Shown: positions 21,701-33,847 of the stretch, piece by piece
Layout: every line of letters starts with the position of its first letter
Position numbering within the stretch: the first letter of the stretch is position 1
Source: a virus
Length of the DNA stretch: 38,201 bases
Direction: 5' to 3' (one strand)
IMG/VR virus record: IMGVR_UViG_3300047300_000255
Coordinates: 1-38,201 of that record
Made by a program: the position numbers and the translations under genes
Notes under the pieces: model-generated
Databases searched by the model: none
What the model was told of the DNA's origin: nothing
The model's input: the letters and a program-made list of their open reading frames with translations, nothing else

Positions 21701-21886
21701 TTATTGCAAATAGCTACCTTCTTTACGAGAGGCTGCTTCTGCTTCATCCTCAATGTACGCTAGAGCTGCTGAGAGCACTAAGTATACATCGAGAATATCT
21801 AGATCATCGCTGTGCAGTAGCATGAAAGATTCATCGCTAATGTTCAGCATGATCTGAGATTTTAGTTTATTTGATCTGTCTATCAA
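21701..21886 (-). CDS. Small acidic hypothetical protein, TTG start
   Basis: A 61-residue acidic protein. The best start is TTG at 21886: GGAGGGAG lies seven bases upstream, and TTGA overlaps the polymerase stop codon. An ATG at 21937 has no ribosome-binding site and would overlap polymerase by 55 bases. The core SDESFMLLHSDDLDILDVYL followed by ALAYIEDEAEAA is helical. No family recognised. Confidence 0.55.
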   Translation of the reverse strand: MIDRSNKLKSQIMLNISDESFMLLHSDDLDILDVYLVLSAALAYIEDEAEAASRKEGSYLQ

Positions 21887-23604
21887 TGGGTCTCCCTCCA
21901 GTTCTTCCCAATCTTGTATTCCCCATCGAGAGGACATCGTAGATTATACGCTAACCCTGCGTCAATGATTGCTTGTCTACCTGCTTTGCCTACTTTTTCA
22001 GCAATGTCTGCTTTACATTCTATCTGAAATTCATCGTGGACGTTAGCTACAAACTTAGCATCCCATTTATTCTTCTGAATTGTATCATTTAAGATACACA
22101 GAGCCTTCTTCATCACGATTGCACCCGCGCCCTGAAGTAAGCTATTGAGTGCCGCATGTTCAGAACGAACCCAAATTTTACGACCATCCAGCCCGGGTAC
22201 ATAGCCCTTGGACGCATATGCGGATACTTTACTACGTAAACGCTTGAGTGCGGGAGTCCCTTCAAGAAAGGAAGCGATAAGCTTTTCTCCATCTTTACTA
22301 TTACCACCGACAATCGAGCCAATCTTCGCTGGCCCTGCGCCGTAGAGGAACGCATAGATGAAAGTCTTCGCTTGGTCACGTGTTTGTAACGAGGCTGCTT
22401 TCTGGTTAACCGTGTGGACATCCGTACCGTTCTTAGACGATCCCTCACAGACTGTTTTGACATAATCTTCATCCTTCATGTAATGAGCCAACATGCGTAG
22501 CTCTAAACCACTTGCGTCACAACCAACTAAGACGTTACCTTCCTCAACTGTCCAGCACTGACGGCATTCAGGGCCATATGGTGAACCTGAGTTAGGAATC
22601 TGTGCCATGTTAGGTTTCATGTGAGTCATACGTCCTGTTACAGCACCATTGGTGATTACTCTGCCGTGTACTCGTCCATCAGAGCCTACAACTTCCAACC
22701 AAGATTCAATCTGAGCAATACGCTTTTGAAGCATCATGTACTCAGCAAGCATCTGAGCAATAGGATACTTCAAACCCATAAGTGTAGATTCATCAACGAT
22801 CACTGAACCCTTATCAGTCTTCTTTGTAGGTTTCCACCCTAAGCCGATAAGTTTCTCAGCAATCTGTTGTCTACTCGCAGGGTTAAACGTAATCAGTTCA
22901 GGCTTCAATACCTTCCCTGTCTTTTCAGAGATACGTTCAACCTCATACGGTGGATACAGCTCTTGCATCTTGTCATAGATGACACCCATCTTCAGTTTCA
23001 AATCAGACAAAAGACAAGTAGCGTGAACTACATCGAGCTTGAAGCCATTACGTTCTTGCTTGGCTATGATAGCTGCTACTTGGTGCTCAAGGTGAACGGA
23101 ATCAGGAGAGAATCCTTGATTAACAAGAGATCCAACTGACAAGCGAACAAAAAGACTACTAAGCACTTTAACATCACGTTTACAGTAGAACTCCAATAAA
23201 GCTTCGATAGGAGCATCAAAGCATTCACCATCGTATTCTTCCCTTCTGTTCATCATCCATTGCCATGTAGCTTTGTAGTCTAACTTAGCTACTCCAAGTT
23301 CCTTACCCCAAGCATCAAGAGAGTGTCCTTGTTCCCTTGTTGGTTCTAGTAGTCGAGATACCACTAGAGTGTCGTAGGCCTGTTTGAGTCCTATCTTTGT
23401 CTTCCAGAGCTTGTTTAAGATCGGAAAGTCGAATCCTATCCCGTTGTGGCTTACGATCAACGTAGCGTCCTTTAAGTAGTCCCAAAGTCCTGTTGGAGCT
23501 TTCCATACTTTTACCTCCTGTGTGTCAATGTCCTGAGTAACACATAGATGAATCACATCATGTGCCATGTTAGTCTCAATATCGAGAGCAATACGTTTCA
23601 TCAT
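21883..23604 (-). CDS. DNA polymerase, family A (T7 gp5-like) with 3'-5' exonuclease
   Basis: A 573-residue polymerase, shorter than T7 gp5 (704). Exonuclease motifs: Asp8/Glu10 (LDIET), Asp59 (HNGIGFDF) and Asp144 (YCKRDV). Polymerase motifs: Asp363 in GCDASGLELRMLAHYM, the O-helix RDQAKTFIYAFLYGAG with Tyr417 at the position equal to E. coli Phe762/T7 Tyr526, and VHDE (Asp524). The tyrosine is typical of lytic T7-like enzymes. The thioredoxin-binding insertion of T7 seems reduced or absent, judging by length. The ATG overlaps the stop of a 48-residue membrane protein gene (ATGA). Confidence 0.95.
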   Translation of the reverse strand: MMKRIALDIETNMAHDVIHLCVTQDIDTQEVKVWKAPTGLWDYLKDATLIVSHNGIGFDFPILNKLWKTKIGLKQAYDTLVVSRLLEPTREQGHSLDAWGKELGVAKLDYKATWQWMMNRREEYDGECFDAPIEALLEFYCKRDVKVLSSLFVRLSVGSLVNQGFSPDSVHLEHQVAAIIAKQERNGFKLDVVHATCLLSDLKLKMGVIYDKMQELYPPYEVERISEKTGKVLKPELITFNPASRQQIAEKLIGLGWKPTKKTDKGSVIVDESTLMGLKYPIAQMLAEYMMLQKRIAQIESWLEVVGSDGRVHGRVITNGAVTGRMTHMKPNMAQIPNSGSPYGPECRQCWTVEEGNVLVGCDASGLELRMLAHYMKDEDYVKTVCEGSSKNGTDVHTVNQKAASLQTRDQAKTFIYAFLYGAGPAKIGSIVGGNSKDGEKLIASFLEGTPALKRLRSKVSAYASKGYVPGLDGRKIWVRSEHAALNSLLQGAGAIVMKKALCILNDTIQKNKWDAKFVANVHDEFQIECKADIAEKVGKAGRQAIIDAGLAYNLRCPLDGEYKIGKNWRETH

Positions 23605-23987: not shown

Positions 23988-24434
23988 TCAAAGCTCTTCC
24001 AAAGTAACTTCATTCAACGCTGCTATCGCAGCTTTCCGTCCAATGTTCATCTTCAAAACAGCTTCAGCAAAGCGTACTAGCTCGTCCTGTGTTGCATTAT
24101 TCTTCATAGTGTTTGCCTTTGTTGAGATCACTTGAATGTTTCCTTTTACATAGCCTTTCAAAGGATCTATACGATCCAAAGAAGGGGCTGCCTCACCACC
24201 AAGGTACTTAAGCTCAATCCCTAAATACGGACAGAACTTAGGAATCTTCACATCTTCATGTGTTAAATCAAAATCCCAACCTTTGTCCTTTGCTCGTTTC
24301 TTAGCAGCTTTGACCATGTATTTTTCAGGGTTCTTTTCTCTAAACTCTTTGTTAGTTTTCTTTTTCTTCTCGATGATCTCAAGACGGTGTTTTTCATAGT
24401 ATTTTCGATTAGATTCGTAGTATTTGTGTGTCAT
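23988..24434 (-). CDS. Free-standing HNH-type endonuclease 2
   Basis: A 148-residue protein. The basic N-terminus (YYEKHRLEIIEKKKKTNKEF) is a DNA-contacting type. The C-terminal block has FCPYLGIEL, SLDRIDPLKGYVKGNIQVIS and NTMKNNAT, the standard phage HNH endonuclease arrangement with DRID and N-x-x-K. It sits between the primase-helicase and polymerase genes. It is distantly related to the frames at 14666 and 33356 in the DRID/GNxQ block only. Confidence 0.82.
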   Translation of the reverse strand: MTHKYYESNRKYYEKHRLEIIEKKKKTNKEFREKNPEKYMVKAAKKRAKDKGWDFDLTHEDVKIPKFCPYLGIELKYLGGEAAPSLDRIDPLKGYVKGNIQVISTKANTMKNNATQDELVRFAEAVLKMNIGRKAAIAALNEVTLEEL

Positions 24435-24480: not shown

Positions 24481-26088
24481 CTACAATTCTTCCACAGCAT
24501 TAAGATCACATTCAGACAACAAACCAGTGTTGCGTTCATACCACAGTCCAATTTTCTCGGCTGTAGCACGACCAGTAAAGCGATCCTTCAAGACACGGAA
24601 CGTAGTTGTTTGACGTTTACGTTCATCTTCATCCTGCTTATTACGCTCAAGACCAAACATAAAATGTGACCATCGTGCAATAGCTCGTGAGCCAGTGAAG
24701 TGCTTCTCCATTACTCGACCGCCTTCTTCATGGGGTTTACCATCGGGCGTTGTCAAATGGCTAATGAAGTGAATAATCAACCCATCTGACTGAGCAAGAG
24801 AGGCCATGTCAGCCATGATACCGTCCAATGCTCGACGTTCATCTTCTTCGTTAGCGATCAAAGCAGTCAAATGGTCAAGGTAGATATGTTCAACATCGTA
24901 GACCTTAGCGAAGTACTTCATGATGCTCTTAACTGTCTTCCAGTCTTTAGCACCGAAGTGATCCATCAAAATAAGTTGTTTGCGATCTCTAAGGTTATTA
25001 AGACTAGCGACATACTCATCACGAGTCCACATACCGTCAGGAATGTGATATAGACGACTATCAAGTTTCCCTGCCACACGTTGTACAGTTTCTTCAACAG
25101 GCTGTTCAAGATAGATAACCCCTACTTTCTTCTTTAAAACGTCAATGTCATAAGCGATCTGCTGCGTGAACACATCAGTCTTACCTACACCTACACCTGC
25201 ACCAAAGGCGTAGAGTTCCCCTTTACGACGACCATAGGTTAGTTTAGTAAGCGAAGGAAAGCACCATGCCACACCTTCTTGAGGAGGTGCCAAAAGACGT
25301 TCCATTAGATCGTCAACTGTAACAATCCCTTCTGGACGATACTGCTCTGCCCGCCACCAAGCATTCACATAAGCTTCTGACTTACCTGAGATGAGGTAAT
25401 CACAGGCATCTTTGCACTCCTTTAAGTGTTTAACAATTTTAACCTTATTACCGAACAGTTCAGCTACATCCTTAGCTGCCTTCTGACCGGGTTCATCAGC
25501 GTCAAAGCAGATCACGATAGTCTCGAAGCTATCTAGGTACTCGTACTGAGCCTTGCAGTCTTTAACAGCCGCTGAAGCCCCATTACGAATGCTCACAGTA
25601 GGCCATTTTGAGCCTGTCATCTGATAAGAAGCTAATGCGTCTAGCTCACCTTCAACAATGGTGATGTACTTCCCGTTTTTCTGAAACAGATTCTGTCCAA
25701 AGAGCGTAGCTTTATTAAAATTCCCTGCAATGGAGAACGTCTTGTTCTCTACAGATCGGATCTTTTCAGCTACTTTAGCACCTGTTTCGTCAAAATAAGG
25801 ATAGAAGTGTTTACCTTCCATCTGAGTAACACCAAAGTATTCACAAGTCTCCCGTGAGATACCTCGATCTACAATAGTCTTTACTTCCCCTTGTGTCTTC
25901 ATTTGAAATACTTTCACTTGTTGTTGTTTTTGTACCACAGGCTCATCATCTGAGCTTGCTTTGTATGTGTTACACGAGAAACAGTACTGATGTCCATCAT
26001 CGTAGAGTCCATTAGCGTCACTAGAATTACATTCAGGATTCTCACAAGGTACGTGCTTGATGAACTTAGAAGCTACTTTTAGATTCAT
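24481..26088 (-). CDS. Primase-helicase (T7 gp4-like)
   Basis: A 535-residue bifunctional replication protein. The zinc-binding primase domain has Cys15, Cys20, Cys36 and Cys39 (CENPEC ... CFSC). The TOPRIM domain shows Glu146 (IVEGELDA) and Asp196/Asp198 (CFDADEPG). The RecA-type helicase starts near residue 250 with Walker A FGAGVGVGKTD (~295-305), HIYLDHLTAL as Walker B, and FISHLTTPDG and the GSRAIARWSH segment as later motifs. GAGGTGAAG precedes the ATG. It unwinds DNA and makes primers. Confidence 0.95.
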   Translation of the reverse strand: MNLKVASKFIKHVPCENPECNSSDANGLYDDGHQYCFSCNTYKASSDDEPVVQKQQQVKVFQMKTQGEVKTIVDRGISRETCEYFGVTQMEGKHFYPYFDETGAKVAEKIRSVENKTFSIAGNFNKATLFGQNLFQKNGKYITIVEGELDALASYQMTGSKWPTVSIRNGASAAVKDCKAQYEYLDSFETIVICFDADEPGQKAAKDVAELFGNKVKIVKHLKECKDACDYLISGKSEAYVNAWWRAEQYRPEGIVTVDDLMERLLAPPQEGVAWCFPSLTKLTYGRRKGELYAFGAGVGVGKTDVFTQQIAYDIDVLKKKVGVIYLEQPVEETVQRVAGKLDSRLYHIPDGMWTRDEYVASLNNLRDRKQLILMDHFGAKDWKTVKSIMKYFAKVYDVEHIYLDHLTALIANEEDERRALDGIMADMASLAQSDGLIIHFISHLTTPDGKPHEEGGRVMEKHFTGSRAIARWSHFMFGLERNKQDEDERKRQTTTFRVLKDRFTGRATAEKIGLWYERNTGLLSECDLNAVEEL

Positions 26089-27894: not shown

Positions 27895-28170
27895 TTAACG
27901 ATCATCAAAGTCTACAGAGTCTTCTCTATAGTTACTTATTAGATCATCAAAGTCTTCTAGTGAATCCCCTGTGTCCAGTTCCCTAATGTCTTCCTCACAT
28001 GGGTCGTCTAAGTCAGCCTCAGTTATCAAGTCTTTCCTGTCGATAACCTTCACAAATGGCTTGATGTCTTCAAAACAAACTTTACACAGATCGAAATACT
28101 TGCCAGTAACAGCGTTTTTTCTGGTGCTTTCGTAGTCGGTGAGTAGTTTGTTGCAAGATGTGCAGTGCAT
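27895..28170 (-). CDS. Acidic zinc-finger-like protein
   Basis: A 91-residue protein with two Cys pairs (HCTSCNKLL at residues 2-10 and LCKVCFED near 28-35) forming a likely zinc finger, followed by a strongly acidic C-terminal half (DDPCEEDIRELDTGDSLEDF). A zinc head with an acidic tail suits a protein-binding or DNA-mimic role, but that is inference. The AT-rich repeat region follows it. Confidence 0.62.
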   Translation of the reverse strand: MHCTSCNKLLTDYESTRKNAVTGKYFDLCKVCFEDIKPFVKVIDRKDLITEADLDDPCEEDIRELDTGDSLEDFDDLISNYREDSVDFDDR

Positions 28171-30424: not shown

Positions 30425-30500
30425 GATGTGCTAATCCTTTGCAAGTTGTTGATTGTGTCGTTGTTGACGTATGAACTATTGCAAACACTGTGCCAGTTAC

Positions 30501-30568
30501 TTAAATGTAATACTATAATGTACATAATATACACTGTAATTTTTAAATGTAATACTTAAATGTATACT
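30501..30568 (+). repeat. Three copies of a TTAAATGTAATACT-type repeat
   Basis: TTAAATGTAATACT at 30501-30514 and again, identical, at 30543-30556, followed directly by TTAAATGTATACT at 30556-30568. The first copy overlaps the -10 of a possible leftward promoter and the second starts three bases beyond its -35. They could be operators or iterons in an unwinding region. Confidence 0.6.
30512..30540 (-). promoter_or_regulatory. Possible leftward (early) promoter
   Basis: On the minus strand ATTACA (30540-30535), a 17-base spacer and TATAGT (30517-30512) resemble a sigma70 promoter (4/6 and 5/6). It would start transcription near 30505, about 80 bases before the first leftward ATG. AT-richness makes chance matches likely, so confidence is limited. 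Confidence 0.4.
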
Positions 30569-30585
30569 GTTGTAAATAAACAACA
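30568..30585. other. Small hairpin TGTTGT-N6-ACAACA
   Basis: A perfect 6-bp inverted repeat with an AAATAA loop directly after the third AT-rich repeat. It may help strand opening or bind a dimeric protein; evidence is the symmetry alone. Confidence 0.35.
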
Positions 30586-30610
30586 CTTATGATGCACCAT
30601 TACAGTACAT

Positions 30611-30840
30611 TTATGCACTAATATGAATAAACTGTGAATAACTTTTACGCATATTGGTGCATATTTACTTACGCCTAACTGACTGTTGTTTTTATGCAAC
30701 ACTTGATAGACTAGGTGTTTACCCTATGAATACTGAAGTGGTACATAATAGGTGCTACATAGCCCTACATGTTCATAACCTGTGGATAACTTAGTATGTA
30801 TACTTACTATTATGTCTCTCTGTGGATAACTTGTGAGTAA
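30611..30840. other. Cluster of DnaA-box-like 9-mers (putative replication origin)
   Basis: TTATCCACA, the canonical DnaA box, occurs twice on the minus strand (30781-30789 and 30821-30829, 40 bases apart). TTATTCACA, also a consensus box (TTATNCACA), is at 30633-30641 on the minus strand. Near-matches TTATGCACT (plus, 30611-30619) and TTACTCACA (minus, 30832-30840) add to the cluster. AT-rich repeats lie just to the left. The combination looks like a DnaA-dependent origin. Confidence 0.6.
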
Positions 30841-30919
30841 CTTGATAGGGGGGGAGGGGTGTGCTTGTGAGTTTACTTTTGTGGGAGCCTCTAAAGCATA
30901 CAAAAAAGAGTATTTTAGA

Positions 30920-30940
30920 AGTGCCTAAAAAGTAAGCACT
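30920..30940. repeat. Dyad element copy 1: AGTGC-N11-GCACT
   Basis: AGTGC at 30920-30924 and GCACT at 30936-30940 are perfect inverted half-sites 11 bases apart. The first 14 bases (AGTGCCTAAAAAGT) are repeated exactly at 31047-31060. The form is that of a dimer-binding operator. Confidence 0.5.
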
Positions 30941-31046
30941 AAAGTCAATAAAGACAACAACTTATGGAATAATTAGGGACAGGTTAGTTTCTGTGGAGTA
31001 ATTCTATGGAGAATCTGTGCACAGGAGGCCTGTATAGAGGCTCTTG

Positions 31047-31067
31047 AGTGCCTAAAAAGTGTGCACA
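31047..31067. repeat. Dyad element copy 2: GTGC-N11-GCAC
   Basis: The same 14-mer as at 30920, again followed two bases later by GCAC, so the half-site spacing of 11 is kept. It lies 65 bases before the -35 of the rightward promoter at 31132. Confidence 0.5.
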
Positions 31068-31131
31068 AGAGGTCTATAAAGTAAGGAATTGTCACCTATG
31101 TGACTATAATGAAAATAAATTCAAAAAAGAC

Positions 31132-31159
31132 TTGACAAATCAGAAAAGATGTATATAAT
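31132..31159 (+). promoter_or_regulatory. Strong sigma70-type promoter for the terminase operon
   Basis: TTGACA at 31132-31137, a 16-base spacer, and TATAAT at 31154-31159: both hexamers are perfect consensus. Transcription would start near 31166 and make a leader of about 250 bases before the terminase small subunit ATG at 31418. Confidence 0.85.
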
Positions 31160-31166
31160 TCTCTTT

Positions 31167-31386
31167 GAAGGTTATCCTTCCAAGAACTCAAATGAAAACT
31201 TTGTAGACGGGCTACTTAGTTAATACGGGAAGTTTCTTAGGAGTAGACAACAAAGTTCTACTTCCTTAGTTTTTCCTAGTCTGTACACAAGAGGTAAGTA
31301 AAGTAGTAATATACTTCATTTAGATTCTTGTACTTAAGAGGCTTTTAAGCCGTAAGTTAAATTATAGAGATACTTTATAGTCTCTA
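31167..31386 (+). promoter_or_regulatory. Structured 5' leader with possible attenuator
   Basis: Stem-loops in order: GAAGG-TTAT-CCTTC at about 31167-31180, right at the 5' end. AGTAGA (31242-31247) with TCTACT (31257-31262), extended by AGG/CCT with one bulge and followed by TAGTTTTT, terminator-like. GGCTTTTAAGCC near 31341. TAGAGA (31365-31370) with TCTCTA (31381-31386). The second could act as an attenuator before the terminase genes. Confidence 0.45.
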
Positions 31387-31417
31387 GCTTATTCCATGTC
31401 CTAAAGAAAGGGTAAAC

Positions 31418-31852
31418 ATGGCTGATACTGAACAACAACAACAACTAAAAGATCCATTGAAGCCTCGCGGTAGAGGTAGACCCAAAAAGGGTGAGATAGT
31501 AGCTAAAAAGCCTAAGAACAGAGGAGTCATTGGTAGACCTCCCGGTGATAAGGCTATTATGGATGAGTACAAAGCTAGGATGCTTAACTCACCTAAGTCA
31601 GCTAAGGTCTTAGAGACTATTCTTAATGCTGCACTGGATGATAATCATAAGAACCAAGCTGTAGCATGGAAGCTAGTTATTGATAGGGTAGTCCCAGTAA
31701 GTGCATTCGAGCAAGCAAAGCAAGGCAATAGTGCTCCTGCTATTAGCATTAACATTATGGGTCTTAACCAAGCTAATACTACTATTGACCAAGATAGTGT
31801 CAGCGATAGCGTCGATGTTGACATCTCGGACGTAGAGGCTAAGTATGACTAG
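31418..31852 (+). CDS. Terminase small subunit
   Basis: A 144-residue basic protein directly before and overlapping the large terminase (eight bases). The N-terminus is Gln-rich and has RGRGRPKKGE, an AT-hook-like motif, and GVIGRPPGDK. The core SPKSAKVLETILNAALDDNH followed by KNQAVAWKLVIDRVVPVSAF matches small terminase proteins of T7-like podoviruses. It would recognise phage DNA for packaging. AAAGAAAGGG precedes the ATG. Confidence 0.78.
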   Translation: MADTEQQQQLKDPLKPRGRGRPKKGEIVAKKPKNRGVIGRPPGDKAIMDEYKARMLNSPKSAKVLETILNAALDDNHKNQAVAWKLVIDRVVPVSAFEQAKQGNSAPAISINIMGLNQANTTIDQDSVSDSVDVDISDVEAKYD

Positions 31853-33104
31853 TCTCAACTTTGAACTCCTAAAGTGGCAACAAGAGGTCTTTAAGGACAA
31901 GCATCGCTTTAAAGTAGTAGCAGCAGGGCGTCGATGTGGTAAGTCTAGACTATCAGCAGTATCGTTACTCATTGAAGGTCTGAACTGTCCTGAAGGTTCA
32001 GCTGTGATGTACATAGCTCCTACCCTCGGTCAAGCTAGGACTATTATGTGGGACTTACTGAATGACTTAGGTAGGCCTGTCATCAAGTCAGCTCACGTTA
32101 ATAACTTAGAGATTACACTTATAAATGGACGTAAGATTCTCGTTCGTGGGGCAGATAACCCTGATTCTCTTCGTGGTGTATCTCTCACTTATGTAGTCCT
32201 TGACGAGTGTGCCTTTATTAAAGAGGATGTCTGGCAGAAGATCATTCGAGCTTCTCTGTCTGATAAAAAAGGTAGAGCTTTGTTCATTAGTACCCCTAGT
32301 GGACGTAACTGGTTCTATGATGTCTTTAAGCTAGGTCAGGAAGAGACAGACGAAGAGTGGGGTAGCTGGCATTTCACAACCAAGGACAATGAGACTATTG
32401 ATCCTAAAGAGATTGAAGCTGCTGAGAGAACTCTAAGCTCCTTTGCCTTCAAACAAGAATATCTTAGCTCGTTCGATACAGCAGGGGCTGATCTGTTCAA
32501 AGAAGAGTGGTTAAAGTACAAAGATGAGCCTCAGTATGGTGATTATGTCATCGCTATTGACTTAGCTGGCTTTGAAGATGTAGCTAAGTCAGCAGGAGCT
32601 GCTAAGAAGCGTCTAGACGAATCAGCTATTACTATCTGTAAGATCCTAGACAATGGGGATTGGTGGGTTAAGAAGATTGTTCATGGTCGCTGGGACATTC
32701 GAGAGACTGCTTCTAAGATCCTTCTAGCCATCCGTGAGCATCGTCCTATCGCTGTAGGTATTGAGAGAGGTGCTCTAAAGAATGCTGTGATGCACTACCT
32801 TGAGGACTTGATGAGGAAGAATAATGTCTATTCCCACATCACAGACTTGACACACGGGAACAAGAAGAAGACTGATCGTGTTGTATGGGCCTTACAAGGC
32901 CGCTTTGAGCATGGACGTATCTCCTTGAACTCAGAAGAGGATTGGAAAGAATTTGAAGATCAATACTTGATGTTCCCTACTTCAGGGGTACATGATGACT
33001 TGATCGACTCATTGGCTTACGTGGATCAGCTTGCTATGTCTAATTACCAGCAAGACTACGAAGATGATGACTATGAGGTTTTAGATGTTATTTCAGGGTA
33101 TTGA
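31845..33104 (+). CDS. terL: Terminase large subunit (packaging ATPase and nuclease)
   Basis: A 419-residue protein with Walker A AAGRRCGKSR (26-35), Walker B YVVLDECAFI with Asp121/Glu122, and the coupling motif FISTPSG. The nuclease domain has Asp240 (AIDLAGF), Glu308 (GIERGA) and Asp385-Asp386/Asp389 (HDDLIDS), typical RNase H-fold acidic residues. It pumps DNA into the procapsid and cuts concatemers. Length is normal for compact podoviral terminases. Confidence 0.94.
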   Translation: MTSLNFELLKWQQEVFKDKHRFKVVAAGRRCGKSRLSAVSLLIEGLNCPEGSAVMYIAPTLGQARTIMWDLLNDLGRPVIKSAHVNNLEITLINGRKILVRGADNPDSLRGVSLTYVVLDECAFIKEDVWQKIIRASLSDKKGRALFISTPSGRNWFYDVFKLGQEETDEEWGSWHFTTKDNETIDPKEIEAAERTLSSFAFKQEYLSSFDTAGADLFKEEWLKYKDEPQYGDYVIAIDLAGFEDVAKSAGAAKKRLDESAITICKILDNGDWWVKKIVHGRWDIRETASKILLAIREHRPIAVGIERGALKNAVMHYLEDLMRKNNVYSHITDLTHGNKKKTDRVVWALQGRFEHGRISLNSEEDWKEFEDQYLMFPTSGVHDDLIDSLAYVDQLAMSNYQQDYEDDDYEVLDVISGY

Positions 33105-33107
33105 TAT

Positions 33108-33362
33108 ATGACAATCAAACGTGGTAAAGAAGAGTTTGCAGGTTACAACAAACCTAAACGTACTCCCGGACACCCAACTAAGAGTCATGCTGTCTTGGCT
33201 AAAGAAGGTGACGAGGTCAAGCTGATTCGTTTTGGTCAGCAAGGCGTCTCAGGTAGCCCTGACGGTTCAGCCCGTAATGATGCCTTTAAAGCTCGTCACG
33301 CTAAGAACATCGCTAAAGGTAAGATGTCTGCTGCTTATTGGAGCAATAAAATAAAATGGTGA
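33108..33362 (+). CDS. Conserved small phage protein, DUF6321-like
   Basis: An 84-residue basic protein: KRGKEEFAGYNKPKRTPGHP, then VKLIRFGQQGVSGSPDG and FKARHAKNIAKGKMSAAYWS. This pattern (RFGQQG ... FKARHxxNIxKGxxSAAYWxNKxxW) is a well-conserved small protein encoded after terminase in T7-like phages; I recall it as DUF6321. Role unproven. Its stop codon overlaps the start of an HNH gene by seven bases. Confidence 0.75.
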   Translation: MTIKRGKEEFAGYNKPKRTPGHPTKSHAVLAKEGDEVKLIRFGQQGVSGSPDGSARNDAFKARHAKNIAKGKMSAAYWSNKIKW

Positions 33363-33847
33363 GCAAAGGTCTAGACGGACGTTGGTATAAACCTTGCCCT
33401 AGTTGTGGGACGATGCAAAGCTATCTTCGTAAGAACTACGCTGAAGAATCTGAACGGTTAAACAAAGAATGTAAAGCTTGTTCCAATAAAAAGACAGATA
33501 ACTGTAGCCGAGGCTTTTACGAGGATATTCGACTCTCTTGGTTTAATAAGTTTCAAAGCGGCGCAGAACTTCGGAATTTAGCTTTTAACCTTACGCCCAC
33601 ATACCTTTGGGAATTGTTCAAAGAGCAGGACTATCGTTGTTCTTTGACAGGTTGGCCTATAGGATGGGCAGAGGTAGGGTCTAATCACACAGCCTCTATT
33701 GACCGTATAGACTCCGATAAAGGTTATGTTGTCGGTAATGTGCAGCTTGTACATAAAGATGTCAATATGGCTAAACAGCAGTTCTCGCAAGAGTACTTTA
33801 TTGAAATGTGTTCTGCTGTCGCTGATAAAAATAAAGTTAAGTGGTAA
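33356..33847 (+). CDS. Free-standing HNH-type endonuclease 3
   Basis: A 163-residue protein with N-terminal zinc pairs (CPSCG, CKAC) and the block CSLTGWPIG ... ASIDRIDSDKGYVVGNVQLV and HKDVNMAK, which closely parallels the first HNH (14666): same HKD-N-M-x-K ending. It lies between terminase/DUF6321 and the portal promoter. A homing role, cutting related phages in nearby packaging genes, is the family expectation. Confidence 0.82.
   Translation: MVSKGLDGRWYKPCPSCGTMQSYLRKNYAEESERLNKECKACSNKKTDNCSRGFYEDIRLSWFNKFQSGAELRNLAFNLTPTYLWELFKEQDYRCSLTGWPIGWAEVGSNHTASIDRIDSDKGYVVGNVQLVHKDVNMAKQQFSQEYFIEMCSAVADKNKVKW

Follow-up and report, generated by a model that had tools for sequence, protein, structure and literature searches.

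The question raised by this locus is whether a phage with a T7-like replisome could hand the start of its replication to the DnaA protein of its host. For T7-type replisomes, the starting point is taken to be a transcript made by the phage's own RNA polymerase, and DnaA is not known to load a T7-type primase-helicase. The initial annotation of IMGVR_UViG_3300047300_000255, a complete 38,201-bp IMG/VR virus record from an uncultured phage, analyzed here over its whole length (the window), had proposed such an origin from a cluster of DnaA boxes.

Genome layout and replication genes

The genome is organized in two arms that diverge from positions 30425-31417, at 993 bp the longest noncoding stretch of the window, which the ORF list and family assignments define as the intergenic control region between a leftward replication operon and a rightward terS-terL-structural operon. 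Besides small early genes, the leftward arm (30424 to 15144) encodes a T7-type primase-helicase (24481-26088, minus strand), a family A DNA polymerase (21883-23604, minus strand), an exonuclease, ThyX and a B12-type ribonucleotide reductase, and the T7-like replisome described by the initial annotation is therefore borne out by the finding of both the polymerase and the primase-helicase. The rightward arm begins with a probable small terminase gene (terS; 31418-31852, plus strand), assigned by its position before terL and its conservation in relatives, with no family match, and continues with the large terminase gene (terL; 31845-33104, plus strand), the portal and tail genes. A perfect sigma-70 promoter (TTGACA-N16-TATAAT, 12/12) is directed towards terS and terL at 31132-31159 on the plus strand. 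Several of the small early proteins encoded between 26812 and 30424 (minus strand) are conserved and have no family matches; for two of the early proteins, a product of about 90 aa encoded at 27895-28170 and a 56-aa product from near 27.6-27.8 kb, relatives were present in 46 of the 49 related phages tested. Each arm also encodes one endonuclease VII-like protein (23988-24434, minus strand; 33356-33847, plus strand), both belonging to PHROG family phrog_3322.

A T7-type RNA polymerase (PF00940) was found neither in the window, as the initial annotation had reported, nor in 17 relatives searched, while both positive-control phages (LUZ100 and YIMV22061) were detected. The DnaA C-terminal (DNA-binding) domain or a DnaA-like protein was likewise sought in the phages and not found, nor was a phage-encoded sigma-54 activator. 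Searches of the phage DNA against 50,697 phage records gave no match, leaving no DNA in common with any GenBank phage, and a host search with TerL and the G-tract block described below against 84,980 bacterial and archaeal genomes gave no relative. The comparisons that follow rest on 90 distinct IMG/VR relatives, 80 loci having been fetched by TerL and further ones by a conserved word.

DnaA boxes and the origin question

Two exact copies of TTATCCACA, at 30781-30789 (context AGTTATCCACAGG) and 30821-30829 (context AGTTATCCACAGA), lie 40 bp apart, start to start, on the minus strand, and a third box, TTATTCACA (30633-30641, minus strand), is one of three position-5 variants that are also enriched in relatives; all three are exactly where the initial annotation had placed them. 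Its location of the boxes in the long noncoding region is equally correct, since three of the four TTATNCACA matches fall within 30425-31417 and only one elsewhere, at position 299. The window alone is nevertheless weak evidence for a cluster, its total of four matches being mildly above chance (shuffle mean 1.77; 8 of 100 shuffles reach four). It is the relatives that make the enrichment decisive. Among the 90 genomes, TTATNCACA occurs 152 times in the 500 bp to the left of a universally conserved G-tract and 19 times in the other 5.5 kb examined, and boxes are nearly missing from the 3 kb of flanking sequence. Counted over 520 bp on that side of the tract, exact TTATCCACA ranks first among 23,169 nine-mers, with 113 copies against 0.6 ± 0.7 (maximum 3) in Markov shuffles and one copy each of two control words, the reversed word being one of them. 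Only the position-5 changes (15, 12 and 10 copies) and TTATCAACA (9 copies) are well represented among its one-letter neighbors, and position 5 is where the DnaA box is tolerant. Neighboring boxes on one strand are often 30-44 bp apart. The enrichment, together with variants like those of DnaA, indicates that the boxes are selected DnaA sites, and the predicted boxes very probably bind the protein. An artefact of the composition of an AT-rich spacer, for which the window-wide count by itself leaves room, is refuted by the contrast between the relatives and their shuffles and control words, and the comparison with shuffled sequence advised by the initial annotation is thus answered by the relatives much more clearly than by the window.

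The distribution of the array sets a limit to its role. Exact boxes are found left of the G-tract in 52 of the 90 relatives and are missing from the other 38, although these have the same terminase. On the TerL tree the box state changes 21 times, against 22.5 times with shuffled labels, which is to say at random, and two relatives with identical TerL (L038 and L039) have opposite states. Of 46 phages from a more distant sister group (TerL 69% identical), 7 also have boxes at the same place, to the left of the G-tract. The array is a quickly exchanged module, and its scattered absence means that DnaA is not indispensable and that the replisome manages without the array in many relatives. Conservation in related phages, by which the initial annotation had proposed to judge its claim, accordingly holds for the larger part of the group only, and absence from close relatives, which it had named as contrary evidence, is partly observed. 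We also looked for a swapped initiator gene, but no left-arm gene convincingly tracks the box state (the best P value among about 28 families was 0.0085, probably an effect of coverage), so no alternative initiator was found.

The neighborhood of the boxes is AT-rich, as had been noted before, and a nearest-neighbor stability scan finds the 100 bp of lowest stability in the 38.2-kb record at 30494-30593, a candidate unwinding region that adjoins both the box cluster and, being directly upstream of it, the sigma-54 site discussed below. The minimum of the cumulative GC skew, another of the proposed checks, is indeed adjacent to the boxes, at 29-30 kb; the genes change strand at the same point, however, so that the minimum adds no independent evidence. 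Three further elements lie in the same region, namely the palindromes TGTTGTAAATAAACAACA (30568-30585), a candidate activator or repressor site, and TGTTGTTTTTATGCAACA (30684-30701), and the conserved element AATAGGTGCTACAT (30747-30760), which is present as GGTGCTACA in 45 of the 90 relatives; in about half of the relatives the element stands some 90-100 bp left of the G-tract.

The proposal of a DnaA-dependent origin is therefore upheld as far as the selected boxes, the T7-like replisome and the lack of an RNA polymerase are concerned, and weakened by the relatives without boxes and their random placement on the tree. Moreover, both operons have their predicted promoters in this region, which is also a probable packaging site, so that boxes need not mean an origin. 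Judged from these patterns, there is about an even chance that the array marks a site where replication starts.

A predicted sigma-54 promoter and the G-tract block

Probably the most surprising neighbor of the boxes, missed by the initial annotation, is a predicted sigma-54 (RpoN) -24/-12 promoter with a perfect motif, CTGGCACAGTGTTTGCA, at 30480-30496 on the minus strand. It is the sole match in the window, where 0.04 would be expected, and is directed into the replication operon, whose first ATG (30424) is 56 nt away. The site has GG at -24, GC at -12 and the TGGCAY...TTGC spacing; a leftward motif on the same strand is present in 61 of the 90 relatives, compared with two matches in 408 kb of flanking sequence. 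The aligned sites, in which TGGCAY and TGC are near-invariant and their spacing fixed, agree with the E. coli RpoN consensus TGGCACnnTTnTTGC (PMC8743547). An extended -10 sigma-70 promoter was considered at the same position and rejected, because the bases past TGC do not fit TATAAT and TGGCAY is nearly invariant at a fixed spacing. We are thus fairly confident that the predicted leftward promoter depends on sigma-54.

Upstream of it, by 113 bp, lies an NtrC-box-like dyad with one mismatch, TGCACCATTACAGTACA (30593-30609, plus strand), which alone is not above chance and carries weight because its placement matches that in the relatives. There, 66 TGCAC-N7-GTGCA dyads were counted in 46.8 kb, compared with 8 in 369 kb, and their centers mostly precede the sigma-54 site by 112-115, 144-149 or 201 bp on its upstream side; their unforced positions 6-7 and 11-12 read C/T-A...T-A/G, reproducing the published NtrC box of E. 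coli, TGCACCAnnnTGGTGCA (PMC8743547). Enhancers of sigma-54 promoters usually lie 70-150 bp upstream (PMC3844500), and the relatives show the distance expected of them. Fifteen relatives have TGTCG-N6-CGACA dyads instead and none has both types, which suggests a different activator; carriers of this second dyad include L030, L055, L059, L075, L077, L095 and L179.

A second kind of sigma-54 site, rightward and facing the G-tract, was found in 1 of the 52 box-bearing and 15 of the 38 box-less relatives (Fisher P = 4e-6). Corrected for kinship, this exclusion comes down to about four independent pairs, nearly all in the same direction (P = 0.125), and the hint that the region may be activated either by DnaA or by transcription is a lead, not a result.

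The G-tract itself (GGGGGGGAGGGG; 30848-30859, plus strand; 0.01 expected) and the conserved block that follows it, ACTTTTGTGGGAGCCTC..ACAAAAAAG (30875-30908, plus strand), kept in the relatives, had also escaped the initial annotation. In 12 of 13 records the genome has a single GGGGGGAGGGG tract, and its core is present in 49 of 50 dereplicated relatives. Tract and block precede terS in the large sister group as well, where a search of ten longer records gave no DnaB-type helicase (0/10) and a family A polymerase in one, as a weak match; in phage L360, which combines a related primase with an RNA polymerase, the block is missing. The G-tracts of L296 and L360 proved to be coding. Because it accompanies terS and terL in phages without the T7-like replisome and is missing from L360, the block follows the terminase and not the replisome. 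This co-occurrence with terS and terL, whatever the replication module, is what a packaging site would show, and the block is more likely a packaging initiation site than part of an origin. Contig ends are rare at the G-tract, and of eight contigs that are near-complete, five are closed by exact overlaps of 121-127 nt at scattered points, so that a cos site with fixed ends is not favored and circularly permuted or concatemeric DNA fits better. A hairpin considered in the block after the G-tract was discarded, since on inspection of the alignment its arms are not kept by compensation.

Known systems and competing explanations

Each part of this region has a parallel elsewhere. In lambda, host DnaA boxes have been footprinted near the phage origin and the promoter pO, and transcription and replication are coupled (PMC3985674). 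Lambda, however, brings its own initiator O and the helicase loader P, working with host DnaB, whereas the present phage has a T7-type primase-helicase and polymerase and no recognized initiator. The Autographiviridae RHEph01, LUZ100 and YIMV22061 have a related primase-helicase (46-48% identity) and a family A polymerase, but they encode a T7-type RNA polymerase and their structural module is unrelated; no box cluster, sigma-54 site or G-tract was found in the part of each of these genomes that was compared. Lacking the single-subunit RNA polymerase of that family, the phage does not belong to the Autographiviridae. It is closer in design to the Cobavirinae (Siovirus: SIO1, ICBM1), which share the size of about 40 kb, the layout in two convergent arms, ThyX, PolA, the primase-helicase and the ribonucleotide reductase, and ICBM1 also has no annotated RNA polymerase. 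Their primase is, however, only 36% identical to that of this phage, they have direct terminal repeats, and the cobavirus comparators showed no DnaA-box cluster, sigma-54 site or comparable G-tract block; despite the similar layout and gene set, close kinship of the core genes was not found, and the phage is not demonstrably a member of the Cobavirinae.

Bacterial sigma-54/NtrC promoters, such as those of the E. coli NtrC regulon, have the same TGGCAC..TTGC motif and TGCACC-type 17-bp dyads 110-150 bp upstream (PMC8743547). Here, unlike there, they stand on a phage replication operon and the type of enhancer is swapped among relatives. NtcA is a CRP-type regulator that works with sigma-70 polymerase. 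Cyanophage promoters for NtcA also place phage genes under a host nitrogen regulator (PMC3037559), and differ from the sigma-54 promoter and enhancer seen here at a replication operon. Within one open-access library we found no phage that has its replication operon under a sigma-54/NtrC promoter and nothing direct on DnaA-dependent T7-like phages; phages exploiting NtcA, and one phage with a gene for a sigma-54-type regulator, were found. DnaA boxes with an AT-rich stretch have been taken as a putative phage origin in Ori-Finder predictions such as that for PseuGes_254 (PMC11512268), made on a single genome, whereas the array described here has statistical support across about 90 relatives.

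The explanation that we favor is that the cluster is a host-DnaA array within a composite control region operated by the host. Host sigma-54 RNA polymerase, with an NtrC-type activator at the upstream enhancers, would turn on the leftward replication operon, while host sigma-70 would serve the rightward structural operon. In box-bearing members, DnaA on the array (30633-30829) would help to melt the adjacent AT-rich DNA, where the phage primase-helicase and polymerase would then enter and start replication. Motifs, enrichment, spacing, gene context and the failure to find an RNA polymerase or a DnaA homologue are what this account is built on, and from them we infer protein binding, promoter use and, most of all, that bound DnaA leads to the start of replication; for the composite region as a whole, with DnaA opening the DNA for replication, we consider the case evenly balanced.

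The closest rival, possible although we lean against it, holds that DnaA regulates transcription from the divergent promoters, or serves as an architectural protein, and that the boxes tune early expression while replication starts by another route, for instance through recombination or from a transcript that the host makes. Boxes that stand in a promoter region, 25-375 bp upstream of the sigma-54 site, could just as naturally have a role in transcription, and at the lambda origin, too, the sites for host DnaA act close to the promoter pO (PMC3985674). The near-exclusion between boxes and rightward sigma-54 sites also looks as if both drove transcription across the region, but it shrinks to the few independent pairs mentioned above; besides, most boxes are distant from the -24/-12 element, and the adjacent stability minimum, the lowest of the genome, suits an origin.

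We think it unlikely that the whole region is primarily a packaging or terminus region (terS recognition, pac or cos) with the boxes as mere passengers. The sister phages that keep the G-tract block beside terS and terL without a family A polymerase or a DnaB-type helicase, its absence from L360, and the genome ends that cobaviruses, of the same two-arm layout, have at this position all speak for packaging; they bear on the G-tract, however, rather than on the boxes, which appear and disappear beside a constant G-tract, and the scattered closing points of the contigs are against a fixed cos end. Still less probable is that the boxes titrate DnaA and so slow initiation on the host chromosome during phage replication. 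High-affinity consensus boxes do dominate (113 of 150) and would be multiplied by phage copy number, but most members have just one to four boxes per genome, and a decoy would need no conserved placement within a single 500-bp stretch.

Returning to the composite, host-operated region, a more far-reaching version would have this single locus governed by two circuits of the host, with a sigma-54/NtrC switch and interchangeable starters serving a T7-like replisome that has lost its RNA polymerase; taken as a whole we regard it as rather improbable. In it, nitrogen status may turn on the replication genes through sigma-54/NtrC, and the starter may be host DnaA or, in box-less relatives, a rightward sigma-54 transcript running into the G-tract. 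Such a transcript into GGGGGGAGGGG, which resembles the mitochondrial CSBII or ColE1 G-rich elements, may prime replication as an R-loop. If this joint reading is true, infection would be coupled to host physiology through two host circuits.

What is new here is the combination of known kinds of host dependence on a T7-like replisome. The predicted elements suggest that both the switching-on of the replication genes and the start of replication have been handed to host proteins, and, if that is true, a T7-like replisome without its own polymerase would have been rewired to the cell-cycle and nitrogen signals of the host. In this widespread, uncultured group it would also offer a testable account of how infection by uncultured phages could depend on growth state.
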